DNA of 64,000 bases from Oceanospirillaceae bacterium. GTDB lineage: Bacteria > Pseudomonadota > Gammaproteobacteria > Pseudomonadales > Litoribrevibacteraceae. The notes under the pieces are model-generated. The model ran no database searches, was not told the origin of the DNA, and saw only the letters and a list, made by a program, of their open reading frames with translations. Where the stretch lies: positions 620,001 to 684,000 of the forward strand of contig JADFAD010000001.1 of NCBI GenBank assembly GCA_015665455.1. Reading direction: 5' to 3'. Position numbers and translations under genes: made by a program. Position 1 is the first letter of the stretch, and every line of letters begins with the position of its first letter. This document shows, one piece after another, positions 14,879 through 23,693 of this stretch.

Positions 14879-15907
14879 TTAGTACGGGGATTTGTAGATG
14901 TTTTCTCCTGCTTCTTTCTTAATTGAATCAGGAATAATAAGGCCAAACTTTTTAGCTTTTTCTAGATTGAGAGCAATGCCGAACTCAGGTTGTTGGGGAA
15001 TAATCTTATCCAACGCTTTTCCCCTAAATATGTCCGCAATCATATTACCTGCCTTCCTTCCGGAATCCAGATATGACGGATAGATAGTGACAGTCGCCCC
15101 CCAGTTCTCCATAACGTCATCTTTGACTAAGCCTATTAGCGGCTTGGTTGCGTTTTCTTCTACTACCTTGGCAAATGTCTTTTGTGAGCCTAATGTGTCA
15201 TTTGGGCTTAAGAATAGATCCACTTTGGAATTTAATTCTCTTATGTGTGTTTTAGCCAAATGGGCCATTCTTGCATCACCAGCTTCACTGCGAACAAAGT
15301 CAACGCTGCGAAAATGAAATGTGAAGTGCTTAAATTCGTCGAGTTTTATGGCCGCATTTAAGCGTTTTATGTAGCTTCTGGATTGCGGCATGTCTGCGTA
15401 AATGAACCCAATATCAGTAGCGGTAGGCATGATGGTTTTAATGAAGTTTAATCGATCTTTGATTGCGACAGGGTATGAAACTCCGGTGAAATTTGACTTA
15501 GGGGTATCCTCAAAGTTATCAATGACGCCAACATCAATAGGGTCTGTAACCGCTGCAAACACGAATTTGTATTTGTGATCATTGAACGCGAACTTCATGA
15601 AGTTCATGGTTGCTATGGTGCCATTTAAAAAGATGACATCGTAATCTTTATCTTTCTCTTCTTGCCAAACGCGTTGGCTCATGCCATCTGAGTTGCCAAC
15701 AGACCAGCGTTTAATTGTTAAGTTCTTTTCTGATGTATAGCCCTGTAAAGATAATTCTTGTTCCATTGCTTGTCTTATTGATGTGTACGGCTCTGAGGCC
15801 AAGGAGTCGACGATAAGTAGTTCCTCAGCATGAAGATTCACTTGGTGAAACAGTAAAGAAGTAATGAGTAATGTGCGGAATAGGAGTGTTTTAAAAATGG
15901 AAGTCAT
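14879..15907 (-). CDS. ABC-type substrate-binding protein (PF04392-like)
   Basis: A 342-residue secreted protein with a signal peptide ending near NLHAEE. The order of segments fits the ABC_sub_bind family of two-lobe periplasmic proteins: DVIFLNGTIATMNFMKF, FAAVTDPIDVGVIDN, NFTGVSYPV, IGFIYADMPQS, NDTLGSQKTFAKVVEE, then an ATVTIYPSYLDSGRKAG loop. In this family such proteins bind small solutes for import or sensing. No permease or ATPase is adjacent, so it may be an orphan or feed a sensor. Confidence 0.85.
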   Translation of the reverse strand: MTSIFKTLLFRTLLITSLLFHQVNLHAEELLIVDSLASEPYTSIRQAMEQELSLQGYTSEKNLTIKRWSVGNSDGMSQRVWQEEKDKDYDVIFLNGTIATMNFMKFAFNDHKYKFVFAAVTDPIDVGVIDNFEDTPKSNFTGVSYPVAIKDRLNFIKTIMPTATDIGFIYADMPQSRSYIKRLNAAIKLDEFKHFTFHFRSVDFVRSEAGDARMAHLAKTHIRELNSKVDLFLSPNDTLGSQKTFAKVVEENATKPLIGLVKDDVMENWGATVTIYPSYLDSGRKAGNMIADIFRGKALDKIIPQQPEFGIALNLEKAKKFGLIIPDSIKKEAGENIYKSPY

Positions 15908-15990
15908 GTGCGTTTACTCCATAAAAAGTACCCTGAATTGTAGTTCTGAATGCTGGGGACGCAAATATATGTATCGTTGATATAAGGACA

Positions 15991-16031
15991 GTGGCTTAAA
16001 GCGAGTGTTGCTCTTCGGTGTTGAATTCGCG
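15991..16031 (+). repeat. IS30-family right terminal end, copy 2 (relic)
   Basis: This stretch matches 6574-6614 at 37 of 41 positions, including GCGAGTGTTG and GTTGAATTCGCG. No transposase is left beside it, so it is a scar of a lost IS30-type element. Confidence 0.6.
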
Positions 16032-16118
16032 GTTTCATTTGGGCAACCGGACGATGTGGCAGAAAATGAAAATGGAAGGTTTGTGATATTTCCTTTTGAA
16101 CAAGAAGAAAAAGGTTGA
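16032..16118 (+). pseudogene. Possible 3' fragment of an unknown gene beside the IS30 scar
   Basis: An open frame of 28 codons starts exactly at the end of the IS30 relic and ends at a TGA after FVIFPFEQEEKG. It has no start codon or ribosome binding site and looks like the tail of a gene cut by the element. The parent gene is not identifiable from this length. Confidence 0.3.
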
Positions 16119-16201
16119 GCGTATTTTTGAGGTGTAGACGCTGGCACAGACCATTTTAGAGGGATACCATACGCATCAATTTACTTAAGGATGAGTTTAA
16201 A

Positions 16202-16831
16202 ATGCGTTTTATTGTGCTTACTTCGTTTCTTTTTCTATCTGCATTATCTTTTGCCCAAGAGGAAGAGTCTTCTTGGTCTTTGAAGAAAGACGATGATGGA
16301 ATCAAGGTATATACACGAGAAATCATTATAGACAGTCCGGCTGAGGAGGTGAGTGAAAATCAGCTTTCTTACCGAGGCATTGTAAGTATTAAATCGGATT
16401 TGAACTCCTTTCTAAATGTTATGCGTGATGTCCCTAATTTCGATCAGTGGCTTCATAACAGTTATGACCCATCGATTGTAGAAAAAATAGATAATAACAC
16501 TCGAGTTGTGTATCAAAGAATCACTGCGCCTTGGCCGACTACGGACAGAGATTCTGTTCTGTTGCAGTCATTAGAGCAAGCCGGAAATGATTACATTCTG
16601 ACTATGGAAAGTGTTGATCATGATGATGCGCCTGAATCGGAAGATTACGTTCGAGTGCCGTATTACAGCGGTTTCTTCTTTATAAAGCCCCTAAGCACAA
16701 ACGAACTGGAAGTGACTTATGAAGCCGCTTTCGATTCAGGTGGAAGTGTTCCTGGTTTAGTAGCCAATTTATTTATCGTCGATGTGCCTTTCTATTCGTT
16801 ACAAAACCTTCGAGCGTATGTAGAAAACTAG
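16202..16831 (+). CDS. START-domain (lipid-binding) secreted protein
   Basis: A 209-residue protein with a signal peptide cleaved after LSFA. The mature part is a START/SRPBCC lipid-binding fold: LKKDDDGIKVYTRE, FDQWLHN, APWPTTDRD and a PYYSGFFFIKPL strand. Such bacterial periplasmic START proteins are of unknown role but may bind lipids. A paralogue lies at 62361-63095 with the matching WPITDRD motif. A strong terminator follows, so it is probably monocistronic. Confidence 0.88.
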   Translation: MRFIVLTSFLFLSALSFAQEEESSWSLKKDDDGIKVYTREIIIDSPAEEVSENQLSYRGIVSIKSDLNSFLNVMRDVPNFDQWLHNSYDPSIVEKIDNNTRVVYQRITAPWPTTDRDSVLLQSLEQAGNDYILTMESVDHDDAPESEDYVRVPYYSGFFFIKPLSTNELEVTYEAAFDSGGSVPGLVANLFIVDVPFYSLQNLRAYVEN

Positions 16832-16860
16832 ATTTTTTAATAACAGTGGAATAAGTGATC

Positions 16861-16894
16861 GCCCGCTCTTTGTTTAGGTCAGCGGGCTTTTTTT
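16861..16894 (+). terminator. Rho-independent terminator after the START-domain gene
   Basis: GCCCGCT pairs with AGCGGGC around a 13-base loop, followed by seven T residues. Confidence 0.85.
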
Positions 16895-16936
16895 GGTTGG
16901 CTTGTCGGCAGTTTCGAATGCCTGATTTCTTAAACG

Positions 16937-17359
16937 TTATGAGATCGTCGTTGATGTATCAATGTTGCCTCGTGTTGCGTTTGAGTAGGGACAGACTTTA
17001 TGTGCGGTTTCGACCAGTTTCTCGACAATCTCTTTTTCCAAGCCAGGAATATTAACGGTTAAATCTGCTGAGATTGTGAAGCCAATGCCTTTTGAATTTT
17101 CGCCAATTCCTATTTTTGCCGTCACCGTAAGGTCTTCGGGTAGCTTGATTTTTTCTTGTTGAGAAACAAACTTCAAAGCACCAATGAAGCACGCAGAATA
17201 ACCGGCGGCAAAGAGTTGTTCCGGGTTTGTGCCTGAACCACCTGCACCACCCAGTTCACTCGGTGTACTTAGAGAGAGTTCAAAGTCATTATTTTGAGAA
17301 AATGACTTTCCGTCTCGACCGCCCGTTGAAGTGACTTCTGTTGAGTAAATTGGTTTCAT
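16937..17359 (-). CDS. ohr: Organic hydroperoxide resistance protein (Ohr)
   Basis: A 140-residue OsmC/Ohr-family thiol peroxidase that reduces organic hydroperoxides, usually with lipoyl groups as reductant. The two catalytic cysteines are visible: C57 in AGYSACF and C123 in KVCPYSNATRGN. E47 and R15 are the expected partners at the active site. The start has GGAG seven bases upstream. It is divergent from ohrR, with matched palindromes between them, so peroxide-responsive repression by OhrR is likely. Confidence 0.96.
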   Translation of the reverse strand: MKPIYSTEVTSTGGRDGKSFSQNNDFELSLSTPSELGGAGGSGTNPEQLFAAGYSACFIGALKFVSQQEKIKLPEDLTVTAKIGIGENSKGIGFTISADLTVNIPGLEKEIVEKLVETAHKVCPYSNATRGNIDTSTTIS

Positions 17360-17386
17360 AAATATTCTCCTGAATAAACGACAAAG

Positions 17387-17426
17387 TTATCGCAATAACT
17401 AATTTGTGTGTATGTTATTGCGATAA
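17387..17426. promoter_or_regulatory. Candidate OhrR operator: two inverted copies of a 12-bp palindromic site
   Basis: TTATCGCAATAA at 17387-17398 and TTATTGCGATAA at 17415-17426 are exact reverse complements of each other, 28 bp apart, just upstream of the ohr start. MarR-family regulators such as OhrR bind this kind of AT-flanked palindrome next to the gene they control. Assignment to OhrR is inferred from location. Confidence 0.7.
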
Positions 17427-17642
17427 TTATTTGTGTGCAAGGCTTAGGTGTATTTAAATGATAATTAGGGGATTAATGCTCGTTATTGATATCATTCATA
17501 TTTATGATTACAGGATTCTCTAGTTCATCCTGATGATTCAAATAAAGGTTCGTTAGTCTGCTCTGTATGAAGTAAACTCTTGAGTAGGTTACGCAGGAAG
17601 TAGTTTTCTACTGTTCGATAATTAATAAATGTTGGTGTTTTA

Positions 17643-18083
17643 ATGTCCGTTAAAGAAGATGCACTTCTTTTAGATAGTCAGCTTTGTTTTTCTTTATATT
17701 CAACGTCATTAACCATGACTCAGTTGTATAAACCAATGCTTGAACCTCTGGGTCTAACTTACCCGCAATATCTAATTATGATGGTGTTATGGGAAGAAGA
17801 TGGAATAGGTCTTAAAGACATTGGCGCTCGATTGAATCAGAAATCGGGAGCGTTAACGCCTGTAATGAAACGCTTGGAAGAAGATGGCTTACTAAATCGA
17901 GTTCGCGTGCCTGATAACGAACGTCAATTGGATATTCGATTAACACCGAAAGGCAATGCCTTAAAGGCAGATGCGTTTAAAGTGAATCAATGCATTATTG
18001 AGTCTTGTGGCATGCCGATGGAAGAATTAATCGAGCTTAAAAATACATTGGATAAGCTGCGGGATAATTTGTCTAACGCTTAG
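17643..18083 (+). CDS. ohrR: Organic hydroperoxide-sensing MarR-family repressor (OhrR)
   Basis: A 146-residue winged-helix protein. The N-terminal LDSQLCFSLYSTS contains the OhrR peroxide-sensing cysteine at C15. The DNA-binding part includes LKDIGARLNQKSGALTPVMK and the wing RVPDNERQLDIRLT. Oxidation of C15 by organic peroxides releases the repressor in known homologues. It is divergent from ohr and followed by a terminator. A Cys near 117 could form an inter-subunit disulfide as in two-Cys OhrR types. Confidence 0.95.
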   Translation: MSVKEDALLLDSQLCFSLYSTSLTMTQLYKPMLEPLGLTYPQYLIMMVLWEEDGIGLKDIGARLNQKSGALTPVMKRLEEDGLLNRVRVPDNERQLDIRLTPKGNALKADAFKVNQCIIESCGMPMEELIELKNTLDKLRDNLSNA

Positions 18084-18106
18084 ATGTTTCTGAGATCACC
18101 AAAAAT

Positions 18107-18150
18107 GCCTTCACTCTTAATGGTTTTCCTTAAGTGTGAAGGCTTTTCTC
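18107..18150 (+). terminator. Rho-independent terminator after ohrR
   Basis: GCCTTCACTCTTAA pairs with TTAAGTGTGAAGGC (one mismatch) and is followed by a short T-run. Confidence 0.8.
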
Positions 18151-18183
18151 ATTCTGTAACCGGTTAAATAATAACTGGGCCAC

Positions 18184-18354
18184 TTAGTTAATGCAGTTCA
18201 GATCACGTTTACGGTCAATTCGCTTTCCGTATGCACAAACGGAGTTTGTGTTGTCTAGGCCGTTGAAACCAGTTGATTTTACGTCATTTGCCATAGATAC
18301 CGATGCGAATGATGCAATTGCAATTGCGATGATTGTTGATGTGATAGTTTTCAT
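18184..18354 (-). CDS. Small secreted basic peptide, array member 1 (56 aa, two Cys)
   Basis: Member of a five-gene family described here. It starts MKTITSTIIAIAIASF, a signal peptide probably cleaved after VSMA, leaving about 33 residues. The C-terminal core is CAYGKRIDRKRDLNC, with a Cys on each side of the basic motif that could form a disulfide loop. The start has AAAAAGGCA upstream. It is separated from the other four by a 255-bp gap containing a hairpin, so it probably has its own promoter. TTATTGCGCAA in its upstream region resembles the ohr palindromes. I do not recognise the family; the function is unknown. Confidence 0.8.
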   Translation of the reverse strand: MKTITSTIIAIAIASFASVSMANDVKSTGFNGLDNTNSVCAYGKRIDRKRDLNCIN

Positions 18355-18570
18355 TATTTTGCCTTTTTAGTGTCTAAAACGTGTTTTGATCGTTATTTAT
18401 ATTATTGCACTAACTATTATTGCGCAAGGTTATTTTTTGAGTGATTTCAAAGGTGTAAGAATGAAAATTATTCAAATGAGAGGCTGTGATGGGCTGTTAT
18501 AACAAAAGAACAGATATAAATGATGAGAGGTTTTGGTAAGGTGCTAAGAAAGGGGATTGGGATAGTGCCT

Positions 18571-18593
18571 CCCTTAGAGGGTCGCTCTAAGGG
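18571..18593 (-). terminator. Perfect 9-bp inverted repeat after array member 2
   Basis: CCCTTAGAG and CTCTAAGGG flank a 5-base loop just downstream of the member 2 stop codon. It probably ends the transcript of members 5 to 2. Confidence 0.55.
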
Positions 18594-18609
18594 TAAATAC
18601 TGCATTCAC

Positions 18610-18780
18610 TTAGTGAACGCAGTTTAAATCGCGCTTACGATCTGCTCGCTTGCCGTATGTACATACTTTATTTACGCTATCAGAAGCACTGAATCCAGTA
18701 GCTGTTATGTTATCTGCCATCGAAACAGACGCAAATGATGCGAAAACAACTGCGAACAATGTTGATGTAATTACTTTCAT
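18610..18780 (-). CDS. Small secreted basic peptide, array member 2 (56 aa, two Cys)
   Basis: A paralogue of the neighbouring genes. It has a signal peptide, MKVITSTLFAVVFASFASVS, with cleavage likely after MA, then NITATGFSAS and the core CTYGKRADRKRDLNC. The Cys pair matches member 1. I placed the start at the ATG at 18780, which has GGAG in place; an ATG four codons earlier would include that ribosome binding site. The function is unknown. Confidence 0.82.
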   Translation of the reverse strand: MKVITSTLFAVVFASFASVSMADNITATGFSASDSVNKVCTYGKRADRKRDLNCVH

Positions 18781-18826
18781 ATTCTTCTCCAAATCTTAAA
18801 ACGGATTGACTAATTTAATAGGCTGA

Positions 18827-19000
18827 TTAAGTGCGGGTTAGGTCACGCTTGCGGTCTGCACGTTTGCCATAAACATTTGTCGAAATTTCTTTGTCTATGT
18901 TTTTGAACCCTACTTCAGCACTTTTAGCTTCACCGGCGATAGACACGGATGCGAAAGATGCGATAACGATAGCTGCAACGGTTGATGTAATAGTTTTCAT
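18827..19000 (-). CDS. Small secreted basic peptide, array member 3 (57 aa, no Cys)
   Basis: A paralogue with signal peptide MKTITSTVAAIVIASFASVS and a mature part starting near GEAKSAEVGF. The core reads VYGKRADRKRDLTRT: the two flanking cysteines of members 1 and 2 are absent. AAAGGGCA precedes the ATG. It sits about 47 bp upstream of member 2 and about 72 bp downstream of member 4. It was identified by translating the region and by the shared protein pattern. Confidence 0.78.
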   Translation of the reverse strand: MKTITSTVAAIVIASFASVSIAGEAKSAEVGFKNIDKEISTNVYGKRADRKRDLTRT

Positions 19001-19072
19001 GATTTTGCCCTTTGTATATAAGTATAATTTTTTAGTATGTTGTTTGTGCTTTTACTTCATAAATGTTTCGAA

Positions 19073-19246
19073 TTAGATTCGAGTCAGATCACGTTTACGA
19101 TCAGCACGCTTACCGTAAGTACTTTCAGATGCATGCTTGTCGACGTTTGTGAAACCAAGCTCTGTACCTTTACTTTCGTTTGCAACAGAGACAGATGCGA
19201 ACGATGCGATAACAGCGGCTGCAACAGTTGATGTAATAATTTTCAT
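19073..19246 (-). CDS. Small secreted basic peptide, array member 4 (57 aa, no Cys)
   Basis: A paralogue nearly identical to member 5. The signal peptide starts MKIITSTVAAAVIASFASVS and ends near VA; the mature part reads NESKGTELGFTNVDKHASES, then the core TYGKRADRKRDLTRI. The 5' leader is the same as that of member 3, with AAAGGGCA ahead of the ATG. It lies within a 246-bp tandem duplication. Confidence 0.82.
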   Translation of the reverse strand: MKIITSTVAAAVIASFASVSVANESKGTELGFTNVDKHASESTYGKRADRKRDLTRI

Positions 19247-19318
19247 GATTTTGCCCTTTGTATATAAATAAAATTTTTTAGTATGTTGTTTGTGCTTTTA
19301 CTTCATAAACGTTTCGAA

Positions 19319-19492
19319 TTAGATTCGAGTCAGATCACGTTTACGATCAGCGCGCTTGCCGTAAGTACTTTCAGATGCATGCTTGTCTACATTTGTGAAA
19401 CCAAGCTCTGTGCCTTTACTTTCGCCAGCAACAGAGACTGATGCGAATGATGAGATAACGACGGCTGCTACGGTTGAGGTAATAATTTTCAT
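19319..19492 (-). CDS. Small secreted basic peptide, array member 5 (57 aa, no Cys)
   Basis: The first gene of the array in transcription order. Signal peptide MKIITSTVAAVVISSFASVS, mature part GESKGTELGFTNVDKHASES plus TYGKRADRKRDLTRI. It differs from member 4 at only four residues (A11V, A14S, N23G and one other alanine/valine-type change near the signal, by eye). AAGGGCA lies upstream of the ATG. The array promoter is probably in the 440 bp upstream. The role is unknown. Confidence 0.82.
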   Translation of the reverse strand: MKIITSTVAAVVISSFASVSVAGESKGTELGFTNVDKHASESTYGKRADRKRDLTRI

Positions 19493-19935
19493 AATGTCTG
19501 CCCTTAATTTATGAATGTTTCAAATTTATTAAATGTACTGAGTTAGAAGGGGGGTTGCTGATTTGGTTCAAGAAACAACCAGAACAAATGTTTATAAAGC
19601 GAGCAATAAATAATCTAAAAGAATATGGAACTTTAATTTTATGGGGTTTGGTTATGAGCTGTTAGGAGAGGTAAAGCCAAGCTCTGACTGGTTTTAATCA
19701 TTATTGAGTACGTGTGATCTCATCGCTTTACAGAGTGGCAAAAGAGAGCGTTGGAGTTGTAAAGTCCGTCTTTTTGTAGTCGAATTACCTAAAAATAATT
19801 TCAAACTCGTTATTATTTTTTAATTTCTCTATGAATTTAACTGCTTTTTTGCACTACAGATGGTGGTCTAAACCTTCATGGACACTTTCGGCCAAGGGGG
19901 CGGAAAGGAACATATAGCCAATTTGGGAACAATAA
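19493..19935. other. Intergenic region upstream of the peptide array
   Basis: No gene seen. It lies between the divergent peptide array and the 19936 gene, so it should contain both promoters. No strong hairpin or operator was recognised. Confidence 0.4.
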
Positions 19936-20430
19936 ATGGAAAAGTCGGCTCGATTTGAACAGTTAAAAAACGAATGTCAGCTAAAAGATTCAGATTTTTA
20001 CTTTCTGGAGTTGATTCCATTGATTGAAATGATTTGGGCGGACAATCAAAACCAGGAGCCTGAATTAAACCTACTTTATAAGTTTACGACAGAACACATT
20101 GCTCGTATTTGTAACGAAGCAGGTAGCCCTAACTTAATTACAGTAGATCAAGCGAATGATTTCTTAGATCGTTTCGCTCATACCAAGCCTGAACAAAGGG
20201 TTCTTGAGCTGTTGAAACAGTTGGTCATTGAAAGCTGGCAGACTCAACGGGATTCTGAACAGAAAGAAATTACCAAGCAATCCATCTTAGACTATTGTTT
20301 GGATATTGCAGCCAGTTGTGTCGATGCTTATCCTTATGAGCACCATCAGCGTGTCACCACAGTAGAAAAGCAACTCCTGCAAGAATTGATGATAGGGTTC
20401 CATATTGATCCCCTATGTAAAGTCAGTTGA
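19936..20430 (+). CDS. Hypothetical helical cytosolic protein
   Basis: A 164-residue acidic, mostly helical protein without a signal peptide or membrane segment. Segments such as FYFLELIPLIEMIWADNQNQ and LLYKFTTEHIARICNEAG are regular amphipathic helices. A loose resemblance to TerB-like helical domains is possible but I cannot establish it. It stands alone between the peptide array and a convergent DJ-1 family gene. Confidence 0.7.
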   Translation: MEKSARFEQLKNECQLKDSDFYFLELIPLIEMIWADNQNQEPELNLLYKFTTEHIARICNEAGSPNLITVDQANDFLDRFAHTKPEQRVLELLKQLVIESWQTQRDSEQKEITKQSILDYCLDIAASCVDAYPYEHHQRVTTVEKQLLQELMIGFHIDPLCKVS

Positions 20431-20516
20431 ACAGAAGAGCTCACTGCAAGTCTTGCCTGTAACTATCATAAAATGTATTAGGCATTGTCACTAATGCATG
20501 TGGTTAACGACAGCGG

Positions 20517-21410
20517 TTAATGTATATTGTTAACTAAGTTAACGAAGTCTTTAGCCATAGTATGAACGTCCCCGGGCCAGCGAGCGGAAATATAGTTTCC
20601 GTCTTGAACAACCCAAGCTGCCCGATCGTCTGTTAGGGTATCCCTGATAAGACCTGAGGTTTTAATGAAGTGGTGATTGGACGCCTTAGGGACATCAATA
20701 AAATCAGATTTGTCCTTAAGAGCACGAGTAACTTCGCTTTCAACACTCCAATAGCCTAATGCTTCTCCTTTGGATTCCATATAGGTTCGATAGTATGTGG
20801 AATCCCAAAATCGAGCGAAATACCTGGTGAGGTCCCAGGCTGATTTTTCGAGAGCCCAAGTCAAAGCGGTTGTCTTTTTTCCAAAGAGCACTGAGCGCTG
20901 TGTTTGTTTGGAGGTTGAACGTGCCGCTAATACCACCCCGTGGCAAACGGCAGCAATGGGCTTGTGGTTTTTGGCTTCGTCTAGGTCTTCAAAGAACTGA
21001 ACCACAAAACGCTGTAGAACCTCGTTTTCCAAATATTGTTTCATGCCCGAAGCATGGCCACCGGGAAGTACCATTCCGTCATAGTCTGAGGCTTTAAGTG
21101 CATCGAAACGTACCGGCTTTAAGAATGCGGTGTCTTTCTCCAGCTGTTGATAGGCTGTTCTTGCTGCTTTATTACCTCTGAGAAATAACCCGATCAATCG
21201 AACTCTCTTTACTACAGGAATCCATCCCCAGGGATCTAGGCCTTCACCAGAGATCATTAGAGGGTCGCAATGGCCGCGTTTTCCATCTTCCGTCGCAAAC
21301 GTTACTTGGAAGCCCGCATCCGTTAACACTTTCCAAGAGATTGATACTTCCGTTGGGTCAAAGTCATGAGAGGGCAGTGGTATTATGATGTTTTTATTCT
21401 TCTTAGACAT
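20517..21410 (-). CDS. DJ-1/PfpI family protein (type 1 glutamine amidotransferase-like)
   Basis: A 297-residue protein with the DJ-1/PfpI fold. The nucleophile elbow is visible as C156-H157 in IAAVCHGVV, and the oxyanion/Glu region is LPGGHASGMKQYLEN. It is longer than classical DJ-1 proteins, with an insert after residue 60 and a C-terminal extension, as in the Hsp31-like or plant-type group. The function (chaperone, glyoxalase or other) cannot be told. It has no signal peptide. It converges with the 19936 gene. Confidence 0.88.
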   Translation of the reverse strand: MSKKNKNIIIPLPSHDFDPTEVSISWKVLTDAGFQVTFATEDGKRGHCDPLMISGEGLDPWGWIPVVKRVRLIGLFLRGNKAARTAYQQLEKDTAFLKPVRFDALKASDYDGMVLPGGHASGMKQYLENEVLQRFVVQFFEDLDEAKNHKPIAAVCHGVVLAARSTSKQTQRSVLFGKKTTALTWALEKSAWDLTRYFARFWDSTYYRTYMESKGEALGYWSVESEVTRALKDKSDFIDVPKASNHHFIKTSGLIRDTLTDDRAAWVVQDGNYISARWPGDVHTMAKDFVNLVNNIH

Positions 21411-21459
21411 TTAGGCTTTCTCAATAAAGAGGATATTCATGGTTGTAGAGTTTATTAAC

Positions 21460-21735
21460 TTAACTTAACCATGATTGAAACATACCTTTACAGGGTTTAT
21501 CGATACATCTATTACATTTAATACTGAGTCTATGTTGTTCGGTGATGAAAACTTGATGCACTGCTCTATTGATGATGCGCTTAAGAATAAAGTCTGATAA
21601 AAGCTTGGCGTTTCTTTTTCTTGGTCCTTTAATAAACTGTAAATGAAGGGCGACCCTTTGAAATGCTTTAAAGTTCTTTAGCTTCGGTCTGCAGCCACAT
21701 TTAATGTCTGCTTTTTTAACTTTTGTATTTATAAC
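21460..21735 (-). pseudogene. Cys-rich open stretch without a start codon, possible gene remnant
   Basis: About 90 codons are open on the minus strand upstream of the DJ-1-like gene. The translation has a protein-like pattern: KADIKCGCRPKLKNF near the start and IKCNRCIDKPCKGMFQSW at the end, with two CxxC-like clusters that could bind a metal. No ATG, GTG or TTG lies ahead of the first cluster, and no ribosome binding site is seen. It could be a degraded gene or use a rare ATT start. Confidence 0.3.
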
Positions 21736-21758
21736 AAGAATAAAGGACGTTCAAAATC

Positions 21759-23693
21759 ATGGATAAGATCATCAGTGGGCCACTGGTTAGACGAGTATCT
21801 AAAACAGATGCTTACATTTGGCTGGTGGTAGCAGGGGCTTTTCAAACGGATCAGTTTACTGGCGTTGCAAAGACAGCGAGTCATCAGGTGTCATCCAGTG
21901 CTTCGCTTGAATCGATTTCTCTTTCGCCTGAACTTCATGTGGTGATGTTGAAACTGTCAACTGACGAAGAGAGTTGGCCAACGTCTGAAGCTATTTTTTA
22001 TGATCTGAGTTATCAAGGAGCTTCAATTTTTGAACGAAGTGCTTTTTCGGAAAATGGTAACCAATTTTTTGATGGCCCCCTGCCTATTTATGATGCATTT
22101 GAATACCCGTTTTTTAAGTATGAGACCAATCATAAAAAGATTATGAGTGGTTCATGTCGTAAACCTCATGGCGCAGAGGCCCCTAAAGGTAATCAAGATG
22201 CGTTGGTGGCGTTTGATAAGCGGTTTGCCAGCAGCATGAACATTGAAAAGTTGCCTTCATTACTGTTTCTAACGGGGGACCAAATCTACGCCGATGATGT
22301 CGAGACTACTCTGGCAGCGTTTATTTCAAAACGATCCAAAGCGTTTTTTCCGAATGAAGTTTTTCACCCATCATCGGGAAATGCTTCTCTGAATGACATT
22401 GTTCATTCATCCCGAGATCAGATCTTAACGGAAGGCGAGGGGTTTTATTCAACGGAAAAAAGCCATCACCTGATGGGTTTTAGAGAATACTTTACGATGT
22501 ACATGGCTGTGTGGGGAGGATTGAACGTTGATCTAGAACGGCCGTCCATGCCAGATAAAATTCGTGGTAATGCAAACAGTCGAACATTATCCAAATACCT
22601 AAGGGCGAAGAAGAAAGCGCTGGCAAACATTCGTCTTCATGAAAAAACAAAATGTTTTTTTGAGAACACTTGGCGAGTTCGCCGATTGTTATCCCATGTT
22701 TCAACGTACATGATGTTTGATGATCATGAGGTGACAGACGACTGGAACTTAACCGCTGCCATTACTGAATCATTGGGGGCTGAAGGCTCAATGGGGCAGC
22801 GGCTCGTTACTAATGCATTAGCAGCTTTCAATCTTTGCCAAGGCTGGGGTAATGATCCGGTCTCGATTCAACGTAATATCTATGATTCAGTTAAGCCGTA
22901 TGTTGATCGTCTTGGTGAGTATGACAGTGTGCTAACTCACAAAGTGTTCAGTGCGCTTAATCGCAGTTATACCTTTGTTACACCGACGGTTCCGGCTGCG
23001 ATTGTTCTTGATATTCGAACCCAAAGAACCTTTCGAGATAATAACCCTTCATGCCCATTGCTTGTGGATGATGCAGAGCTTGAAAATATAAAGACGCAAT
23101 TGACTAAGGCCGCTCATGACGGCATTGAGCAACTCATACTTGTGTCCCCAGCACCGGTTTACGGTTTTACCACGGTGGAAAAGGCTCAGTTGGCCGCTTC
23201 TAACACCTTTGGCATGTCGACGTCTGCGGATGCGGAGTCGTGGATCAGTGACGAACAGCAAATGAATGCCTTGATTGAGCGAGTTATGTGTTTTCCTGAT
23301 TTGAAAGACTGCTACATATTCTCGGGGGATGTTCATTATGGCTTTTCTCGCAAAGAAACAACGCAGCACCCAACGAAAGGCCACGACGTTAATCTTTGGC
23401 AGTTTACCAGCAGTTCAATCTCAAATGTGCCAACGGGGATGATGTCGCCGGGATTAAAATTGCTTCATTCGACGACCATTTTTGTGCGACACAACACGCC
23501 TTTCTTTAAGGTTCGCTCGCCTTACTTATTACCAAATCGCAAAGAAGGTACTTTCTTAACAGGGCATATTAACCTTGGTGTGTTGGAGCTTAATGATGAA
23601 AGATCAAAAACTTATACTCTATTAAGACCACGGCCTAATGGCAGCTGGAAAGATTGGGTATACGATTTAACGAAACCAAGGTTACTTGATTAA
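21759..23693 (+). CDS. PhoD-like metallophosphatase (alkaline phosphatase D family)
   Basis: A 644-residue protein with the metal-binding motifs of the PhoD-like family: SGSCRKPHG, LTGDQIYADDVE, MFDDHEVTDDWN with the DDHE block, and FSGDVHYGFS near the end. In the family these bind Ca/Fe and cleave phosphodiesters or monoesters. There is no signal peptide or Tat motif, so unlike secreted PhoD this protein is probably cytoplasmic. AGGACG precedes the start. The neighbour downstream, a DUF3592 membrane protein, has no obvious link. Confidence 0.9.
   Translation: MDKIISGPLVRRVSKTDAYIWLVVAGAFQTDQFTGVAKTASHQVSSSASLESISLSPELHVVMLKLSTDEESWPTSEAIFYDLSYQGASIFERSAFSENGNQFFDGPLPIYDAFEYPFFKYETNHKKIMSGSCRKPHGAEAPKGNQDALVAFDKRFASSMNIEKLPSLLFLTGDQIYADDVETTLAAFISKRSKAFFPNEVFHPSSGNASLNDIVHSSRDQILTEGEGFYSTEKSHHLMGFREYFTMYMAVWGGLNVDLERPSMPDKIRGNANSRTLSKYLRAKKKALANIRLHEKTKCFFENTWRVRRLLSHVSTYMMFDDHEVTDDWNLTAAITESLGAEGSMGQRLVTNALAAFNLCQGWGNDPVSIQRNIYDSVKPYVDRLGEYDSVLTHKVFSALNRSYTFVTPTVPAAIVLDIRTQRTFRDNNPSCPLLVDDAELENIKTQLTKAAHDGIEQLILVSPAPVYGFTTVEKAQLAASNTFGMSTSADAESWISDEQQMNALIERVMCFPDLKDCYIFSGDVHYGFSRKETTQHPTKGHDVNLWQFTSSSISNVPTGMMSPGLKLLHSTTIFVRHNTPFFKVRSPYLLPNRKEGTFLTGHINLGVLELNDERSKTYTLLRPRPNGSWKDWVYDLTKPRLLD

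Follow-up and report, generated by a model that had tools for sequence, protein, structure and literature searches.

We have identified a family of small orphan peptides, with seven copies in one genome and one in a sister genus, whose eleven-residue core, YGKRxDRKRDL, is almost fixed and which is preceded at some of its loci by a candidate stress promoter. The peptide genes are real coding genes, and purifying selection is concentrated on the core to an extent far from chance. Within the reach of the present searches the family is new, whereas the general kind to which it belongs, the small lineage-specific exported peptide, is already known.

The peptide genes and their genomic settings

The original prediction described five tandem minus-strand genes between positions 18184 and 19492 of the window, the 64,000-nucleotide stretch of DNA that was analysed, and all five open reading frames were found there with the expected lengths of 56 or 57 residues (Table 1). 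The start of g2 was taken as the ATG at 18780; the mechanical reading frame begins at a TTG further upstream. The proposed division into a signal peptide and about 34 mature residues also stands on inspection by eye: all five precursors begin with MKxITST..., continue with a hydrophobic stretch and reach S[MIV]A, a plausible signal-peptidase site, after which 34-35 residues follow. In the eight copies, the mature parts are hydrophilic and mildly basic (GRAVY -0.75 to -1.42; pI 8.0-9.7; charge +0.7 to +2.8 at pH 7). Two sub-types are present in the array. In g1 and g2 the core is flanked by a cysteine on either side (C-x-YGKRxDRKRDL-N-C); g3-g5 have neither cysteine, and their middle region is two residues longer than in g1 and g2.

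Table 1. Coordinates of the peptide array and nearby features in the window
Feature	Position	Strand	Remarks
OhrR-like gene	17643..18083	+	convergent with the array
Hairpin and T-run after g1	18101..18143	-	strong; z -5.29 for 18090-18186; probable array terminator
g1, last array gene	18184..18354	-	56 aa, two-Cys; profile match E 3.1e-33
Hairpin after g2	18571..18593	-	aligns with the terminator stem of copy A, lacks a T-run
g2	18610..18780	-	56 aa, two-Cys; profile match E 1.5e-31
g3	18827..19000	-	57 aa, Cys-less; profile match E 1.7e-28
g4	19073..19246	-	57 aa, Cys-less; profile match E 2.0e-30
g5, first array gene	19319..19492	-	57 aa, Cys-less; profile match E 3.2e-30
Candidate promoter upstream of g5	19542..19570	-	TGAACC-N17-TCTAAC; loosely sigmaE/AlgU-like
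Gene for a 164-aa protein	19936..20430	+	divergent from the array
Gene for a ThiJ_like protein	20517..21410	-	farther upstream of the array than the 164-aa gene

The array is not the whole set of genes, since the host genome carries two more copies at other loci. Copy A (contig C1; L005, L053) is located between a glutaredoxin gene and glpK, and copy B (C9; L007, L054) lies 14 nt 3' of a DJ-1/PfpI gene and is convergent with recJ. The sister genus, represented by G001, the only other genome compared from the host's taxonomic family, carries a single copy (L009) at its own glpK/glutaredoxin site, so that the tandem layout does not recur there. The order of genes at this site is common to both genomes: sensor kinase, response regulator, glutaredoxin, peptide, glpK, glpR-like, glpD-like and enoyl-CoA-hydratase-like, names given by eye except for the glutaredoxin and the FGGY kinase. 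Because the sister's only copy sits there in the same gene order, the glpK site is probably the ancestral site of the peptide gene.

The array itself neighbours genes for an OhrR-like MarR regulator and, beyond it, for an Ohr peroxiredoxin. The array was said to follow ohrR; the OhrR-like gene is in fact convergent with it, and the two are therefore not in one transcript. Nor is this adjacency general, as no peptide gene was detected beside the best ohrR-like gene of G001 (52% identity, L048), which may not be an ortholog. The same is true of the DJ-1/PfpI relative in G001 (57% identity), beside which no peptide gene was detected. At the glpK site, a terminator-like hairpin precedes the glutaredoxin gene. 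A conserved operon with redox genes (Ohr, glutaredoxin, DJ-1/PfpI) was consequently rejected as a general rule on the grounds of gene orientation, the hairpins and the sister genome. The DJ-1/PfpI protein before copy B and the glutaredoxin near copy A each have an apparent signal peptide. Two of the host's three peptide sites have a gene for a DJ-1/PfpI-type protein nearby, namely the array (the ThiJ_like protein of Table 1) and copy B (directly before it, L007 1674-2366, minus strand); this proximity may be due to chance because the genome has 10 matches to the copy-B protein. The 164-aa protein encoded divergently from the array has no Pfam match above cut-off; it also found no match in the sister genome, in a search run without a positive control, whose empty answer is uninformative.

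As to the growth of the array, genes g5 and g4 are a tandem duplication of a 246-nt gene-plus-spacer unit and form the youngest pair (dN 0.03, dS 0.35), their coding sequences differing at 16 of 174 bases, 12 of them at third positions. The spacers 19001-19072 and 19247-19318 differ at only 3 of 72 bases; set against a dS of 0.35 between the two genes, this suggests that the spacer may be constrained or homogenised. Gene g2, in turn, is the array gene nearest to copy A (75% identity), and its 3' flank can be aligned with that of copy A, including the terminator stem. It therefore probably came from the glpK locus together with its terminator, and the hairpin after g2 is probably a relic of this origin. 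The hairpin and T-run after g1, which probably terminate the array, are absent from the list of a simple terminator scan.

Searches at several taxonomic depths did not extend the family beyond two genera. A peptide gene was found in 2 of 95 close genomes, the host and its sister. Within the order, the whole-protein profile matched 31 of 390 genomes at E <= 0.1, again including these two. Among the other 29, the loci of four were inspected (L014, L037, L023, L038) and the remaining matches were judged by the matched range, mostly the signal peptide, and by long open frames. The match in L014 (E 9.1e-4) is out of frame in a 567-aa ORF without a signal peptide and that in L037 is in frame inside a 210-aa, membrane-looking protein; both were attributed to chance. 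The profile of the mature part alone matched three of the 390 genomes, the third being taken as chance; with this profile L014 scored E 2.2e-4, for which about 0.09 matches are expected over 390 genomes. In the class, only the host genome was matched at E <= 0.001 (1 of 369 genomes). Weak extra matches in the host genome (three at E 1.0-2.0, one at E 0.5) were likewise regarded as chance. No convincing relative was found in viral contigs, genome contigs, plasmids or phages; the genome-contig scans used tblastn confirmation at E 1e-3, which distant relatives would escape, and may not have contained the host genome.

Profile libraries gave a similar picture. Pfam has no match to any of the eight whole proteins or eight mature parts, and thus no named family that covers the core in any copy. 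NCBIfam returned nothing above cut-off for the eight whole proteins: ExtJ (NF040942, a selenite/tellurite operon protein) matched three of the eight at best with 16.9 bits against a cut-off of 52.5 (E 0.0061), in the signal-peptide region only; BhsA matched the sister copy alone (13.3 bits against 90, E 0.091), again in the signal peptide only; and Csx18 remained below cut-off (E 0.17). The best PADLOC match, also Csx18 (E 0.036), was dismissed as chance. PHROGs gave nothing significant (best E 0.17, in one of the eight copies) and a PDB sequence search gave one insignificant match (E 0.5). Wherever the range of a weak NCBIfam, PHROGs or PADLOC match was shown, it fell in the signal-peptide region. 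The core strings do not occur in the literature searched. That these small, exported, basic peptides form an undescribed family is supported in that no profiled family was matched and no convincing relative was found outside the two genera.

Conservation of the core and a predicted hairpin

The signal peptide and the core had been described as more alike than the middle of the protein, and codon comparisons (28 pairs among eight copies) single out the core as the best-conserved part. In the core, 136 comparisons were identical, 143 synonymous and 29 non-synonymous, against 198, 186 and 232 in the signal peptide, 101, 104 and 333 in the middle, and 15, 15 and 64 in the tail. Across the copies, synonymous divergence is close to saturation or outside the reach of the method: dS was not computable for 9 of the 28 pairs and exceeded 1 for 18 of the remaining 19. 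In the seven copies of the host genome, the core has a single variable position, occupied by A or I. Nine of the eleven positions are kept in comparison with the sister-genus copy, x being counted as kept if A or I.

Both cysteines are present in five of the eight copies and jointly absent from the other three (g3-g5), which retain the core. The ancestral peptide is likely to have had one cysteine on each side of the core. For the mature alignment, AlphaFold predicts two strands (17-22 and 28-33; mean pLDDT 65.4, pTM 0.25), with block pLDDT means of 50, 67, 76 and 72, the last three of which cover residues 11-34. In the full precursor, two strands are predicted in the same region (mean pLDDT 56.8, pTM 0.19). 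Both models are weak and based on eight sequences, and a beta-hairpin around the core is to be taken as a lead only. To judge from the strand limits, Cys 18 and Cys 32 would face each other in such a predicted hairpin. As Cys-less forms exist, a disulfide is not always needed.

The upstream element and its partial likeness to sigmaE promoters

A common element, TGAACY-N17-TCTAAC, precedes g5, copy A and the copy of the sister genus. It was found by looking at these three upstream regions themselves, and their likeness is not independent because they are homologous by descent. When aligned, the three regions agree at 11 of the 12 columns of the motif, as against 49 of all 119 columns without gaps (Fisher p 2e-4); this is moderate support, as the test was made after the fact on sequences that share ancestry. 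Genome-wide, the pattern has three matches in each genome, of which the peptide sites account for two in the host and one in the sister. A reversed control pattern matches about as often (two in the host, three in the sister) and the motif is therefore not enriched; its weight lies in where the matches fall, not in their number. The three remaining matches have carA-like, TonB-receptor-like and polA-like genes (by eye) as neighbours, and are followed neither by a rightly directed gene of at least 60 aa, apart from frames opposite a longer gene, nor shortly downstream by a peptide-like ORF of at least 25 aa. A looser pattern matched once in the window against a shuffle mean of 0.70, which means nothing by itself. 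The motif is absent from the starts of copy B, g4, g3, g2 and g1. The look-alike that precedes copy B and ends in TCTGA lies within the DJ-1/PfpI gene, and a search of the 300 bases before this gene gave no such site.

Host and sister genome each encode an RpoE that passes the NCBIfam cut-off, along with weaker ECF relatives. Upstream of rpoE in each of them, we noted by eye a GGGAAC...GTCGWA element (GAAC-N18/19-TCGWA) that was not flagged by script. The peptide sites agree with it in the -35 element and spacing and differ by 1-2 bases in the -10 element (TCTAA vs TCGWA). Two published accounts give GGAACTT and TCAAA as the E. coli-type sigmaE elements and report a TCTAA -10 element for meningococcal sigmaE (PMC4890791, PMC2893595); against the E. 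coli-type elements, the peptide sites match at 4-5 of 7 and 4 of 5 bases. According to a further source, ECF sigma factors require near-consensus promoters (PMC12153292), which counts against a sigmaE reading of such a partial match. Of the roles named in the original prediction, that of a periplasmic stress peptide may draw indirect support from this putatively sigmaE-like element. Both genera also have a second ECF-type sigma factor, which is extended at its N-terminus (L060 1315-2058, L061 1459-2232). In each of them its gene and a TetR-like one (named by eye) are divergent, and the intergenic region contains two near-palindromic ACAGRTCTGTAC-like boxes.

Possible roles of the peptides

We tentatively propose a Sec-exported envelope peptide that is induced by envelope stress and whose basic hairpin tip binds an anionic partner, a reading that we consider possible but short of probable. 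The peptides of about 34 residues would be exported by the Sec route and be active either within the periplasm or on the cell surface. Their ancestral form would be a two-Cys beta-hairpin with KRxDRKR as its basic tip; this tip would be the working part, and its most likely partner would be anionic, such as lipopolysaccharide, peptidoglycan or the acidic face of a protein. Envelope stress would switch on copy A and the array through a sigmaE/AlgU-type promoter, the additional copies would provide a higher dose, and the Cys-less g3-g5 may be a sub-type that has come to do without the disulfide. We infer sigmaE control from the likeness of the promoter and an anionic partner from the basic core; the envelope target of the tip is a guess. 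Quite doubtful is the more specific idea of a new class of sigmaE-switched, Sec-exported hairpin, whose tip would bind one particular envelope partner (e.g. a lipopolysaccharide-transport or envelope-sensor protein) and either feed back on the stress response or act as a released alarm, the Cys-less array copies being a second, redox-insensitive form.

Small envelope proteins of the sigmaE/RpoE (AlgU) regulon offer one close comparison: the predicted export signal, a candidate GAAC...TC-AA element with sigmaE-like spacing and the presence of RpoE in both genomes recall them, but the peptides have no sequence relation to a profiled family and their -35 and -10 elements match the consensus only in part. 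The BhsA/McbA/YdgH-type (DUF1471) proteins are small periplasmic stress proteins. They are, like the present peptides, small, exported and stress-linked (putatively so here), whereas the mature part of the peptides is shorter, basic and outside the BhsA match, and lacks any Pfam match. If the sigmaE link is true, the family would show a lineage inventing its own envelope-stress effector; if false, it would be another lineage-specific exported peptide without a known role.

The case for a signalling, an antimicrobial or a redox role is weaker than that for an envelope-stress peptide. A secreted signal, trimmed from the exported precursor perhaps at the basic pairs of the core and sensed by the population, with extra copies raising the signal, is in our view unlikely. 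A short precursor with an export signal, an invariant core next to a middle that varies, and the existence of several paralogues are all compatible with it, and in both genomes the glpK site includes, on the far side of the glutaredoxin gene, genes for a sensor kinase and a response regulator (named by eye). However, this sensor pair is set off by a terminator as well as by the glutaredoxin gene, and positions 15000-23000 of the window contain no counterpart of it; in the stretches compared (window 15000-23000, L053, L054), no gene for a receptor or for processing was recognised that the three sites share; and a core that varies at one position only among the host's seven copies gives no sign of signal-receptor diversification.

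We regard as improbable a periplasmic thiol-redox or metal-handling peptide tied to peroxide defence. The neighbours are suggestive, with Ohr and the OhrR-like regulator at the array, glutaredoxin at the glpK site and DJ-1/PfpI at copy B, but the first pair is separated from the peptides by orientation and the glutaredoxin gene by its hairpin. Only the DJ-1/PfpI link is operon-like, and the sister's relative of that gene has no adjoining peptide gene. Moreover, three of the seven host copies lack cysteines yet keep the core, and these three have at most one histidine in the mature part, which also weakens the metal- or heme-binding role considered at the outset.

An exported cationic hairpin that harms competing bacteria is a poor prospect as well. 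Size, export signal, basic core and the weakly predicted hairpin would fit such an antimicrobial. Membrane-active hairpin peptides are unlike such weakly charged, hydrophilic mature parts, and the membrane-lytic variant suggested earlier loses ground on this account. Three copies are without cysteines, no immunity or dedicated exporter gene was recognised in the stretches examined, and relatives were not found in phages, plasmids or viral contigs. Thanatin, a disulfide beta-hairpin peptide, resembles the present family in the weakly predicted hairpin, the cysteines in register and the basic tip; unlike it, the peptides described here are more hydrophilic and less basic, retain Cys-less forms and are made as a Sec-type bacterial precursor.

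Very unlikely, finally, is a low-value young family that is cheaply kept, with selection acting for the most part on how soluble its product is or how well it is exported: its restriction to two genera and the varying copy number (7 and 1) would suit this explanation, but nine of the eleven core positions have been kept across a genus-level split at which synonymous sites are near saturation, and an upstream element is shared. For the envelope-stress peptide that we favour, the joint loss of both cysteines with retention of the basic core amounts to a natural structure-function experiment.
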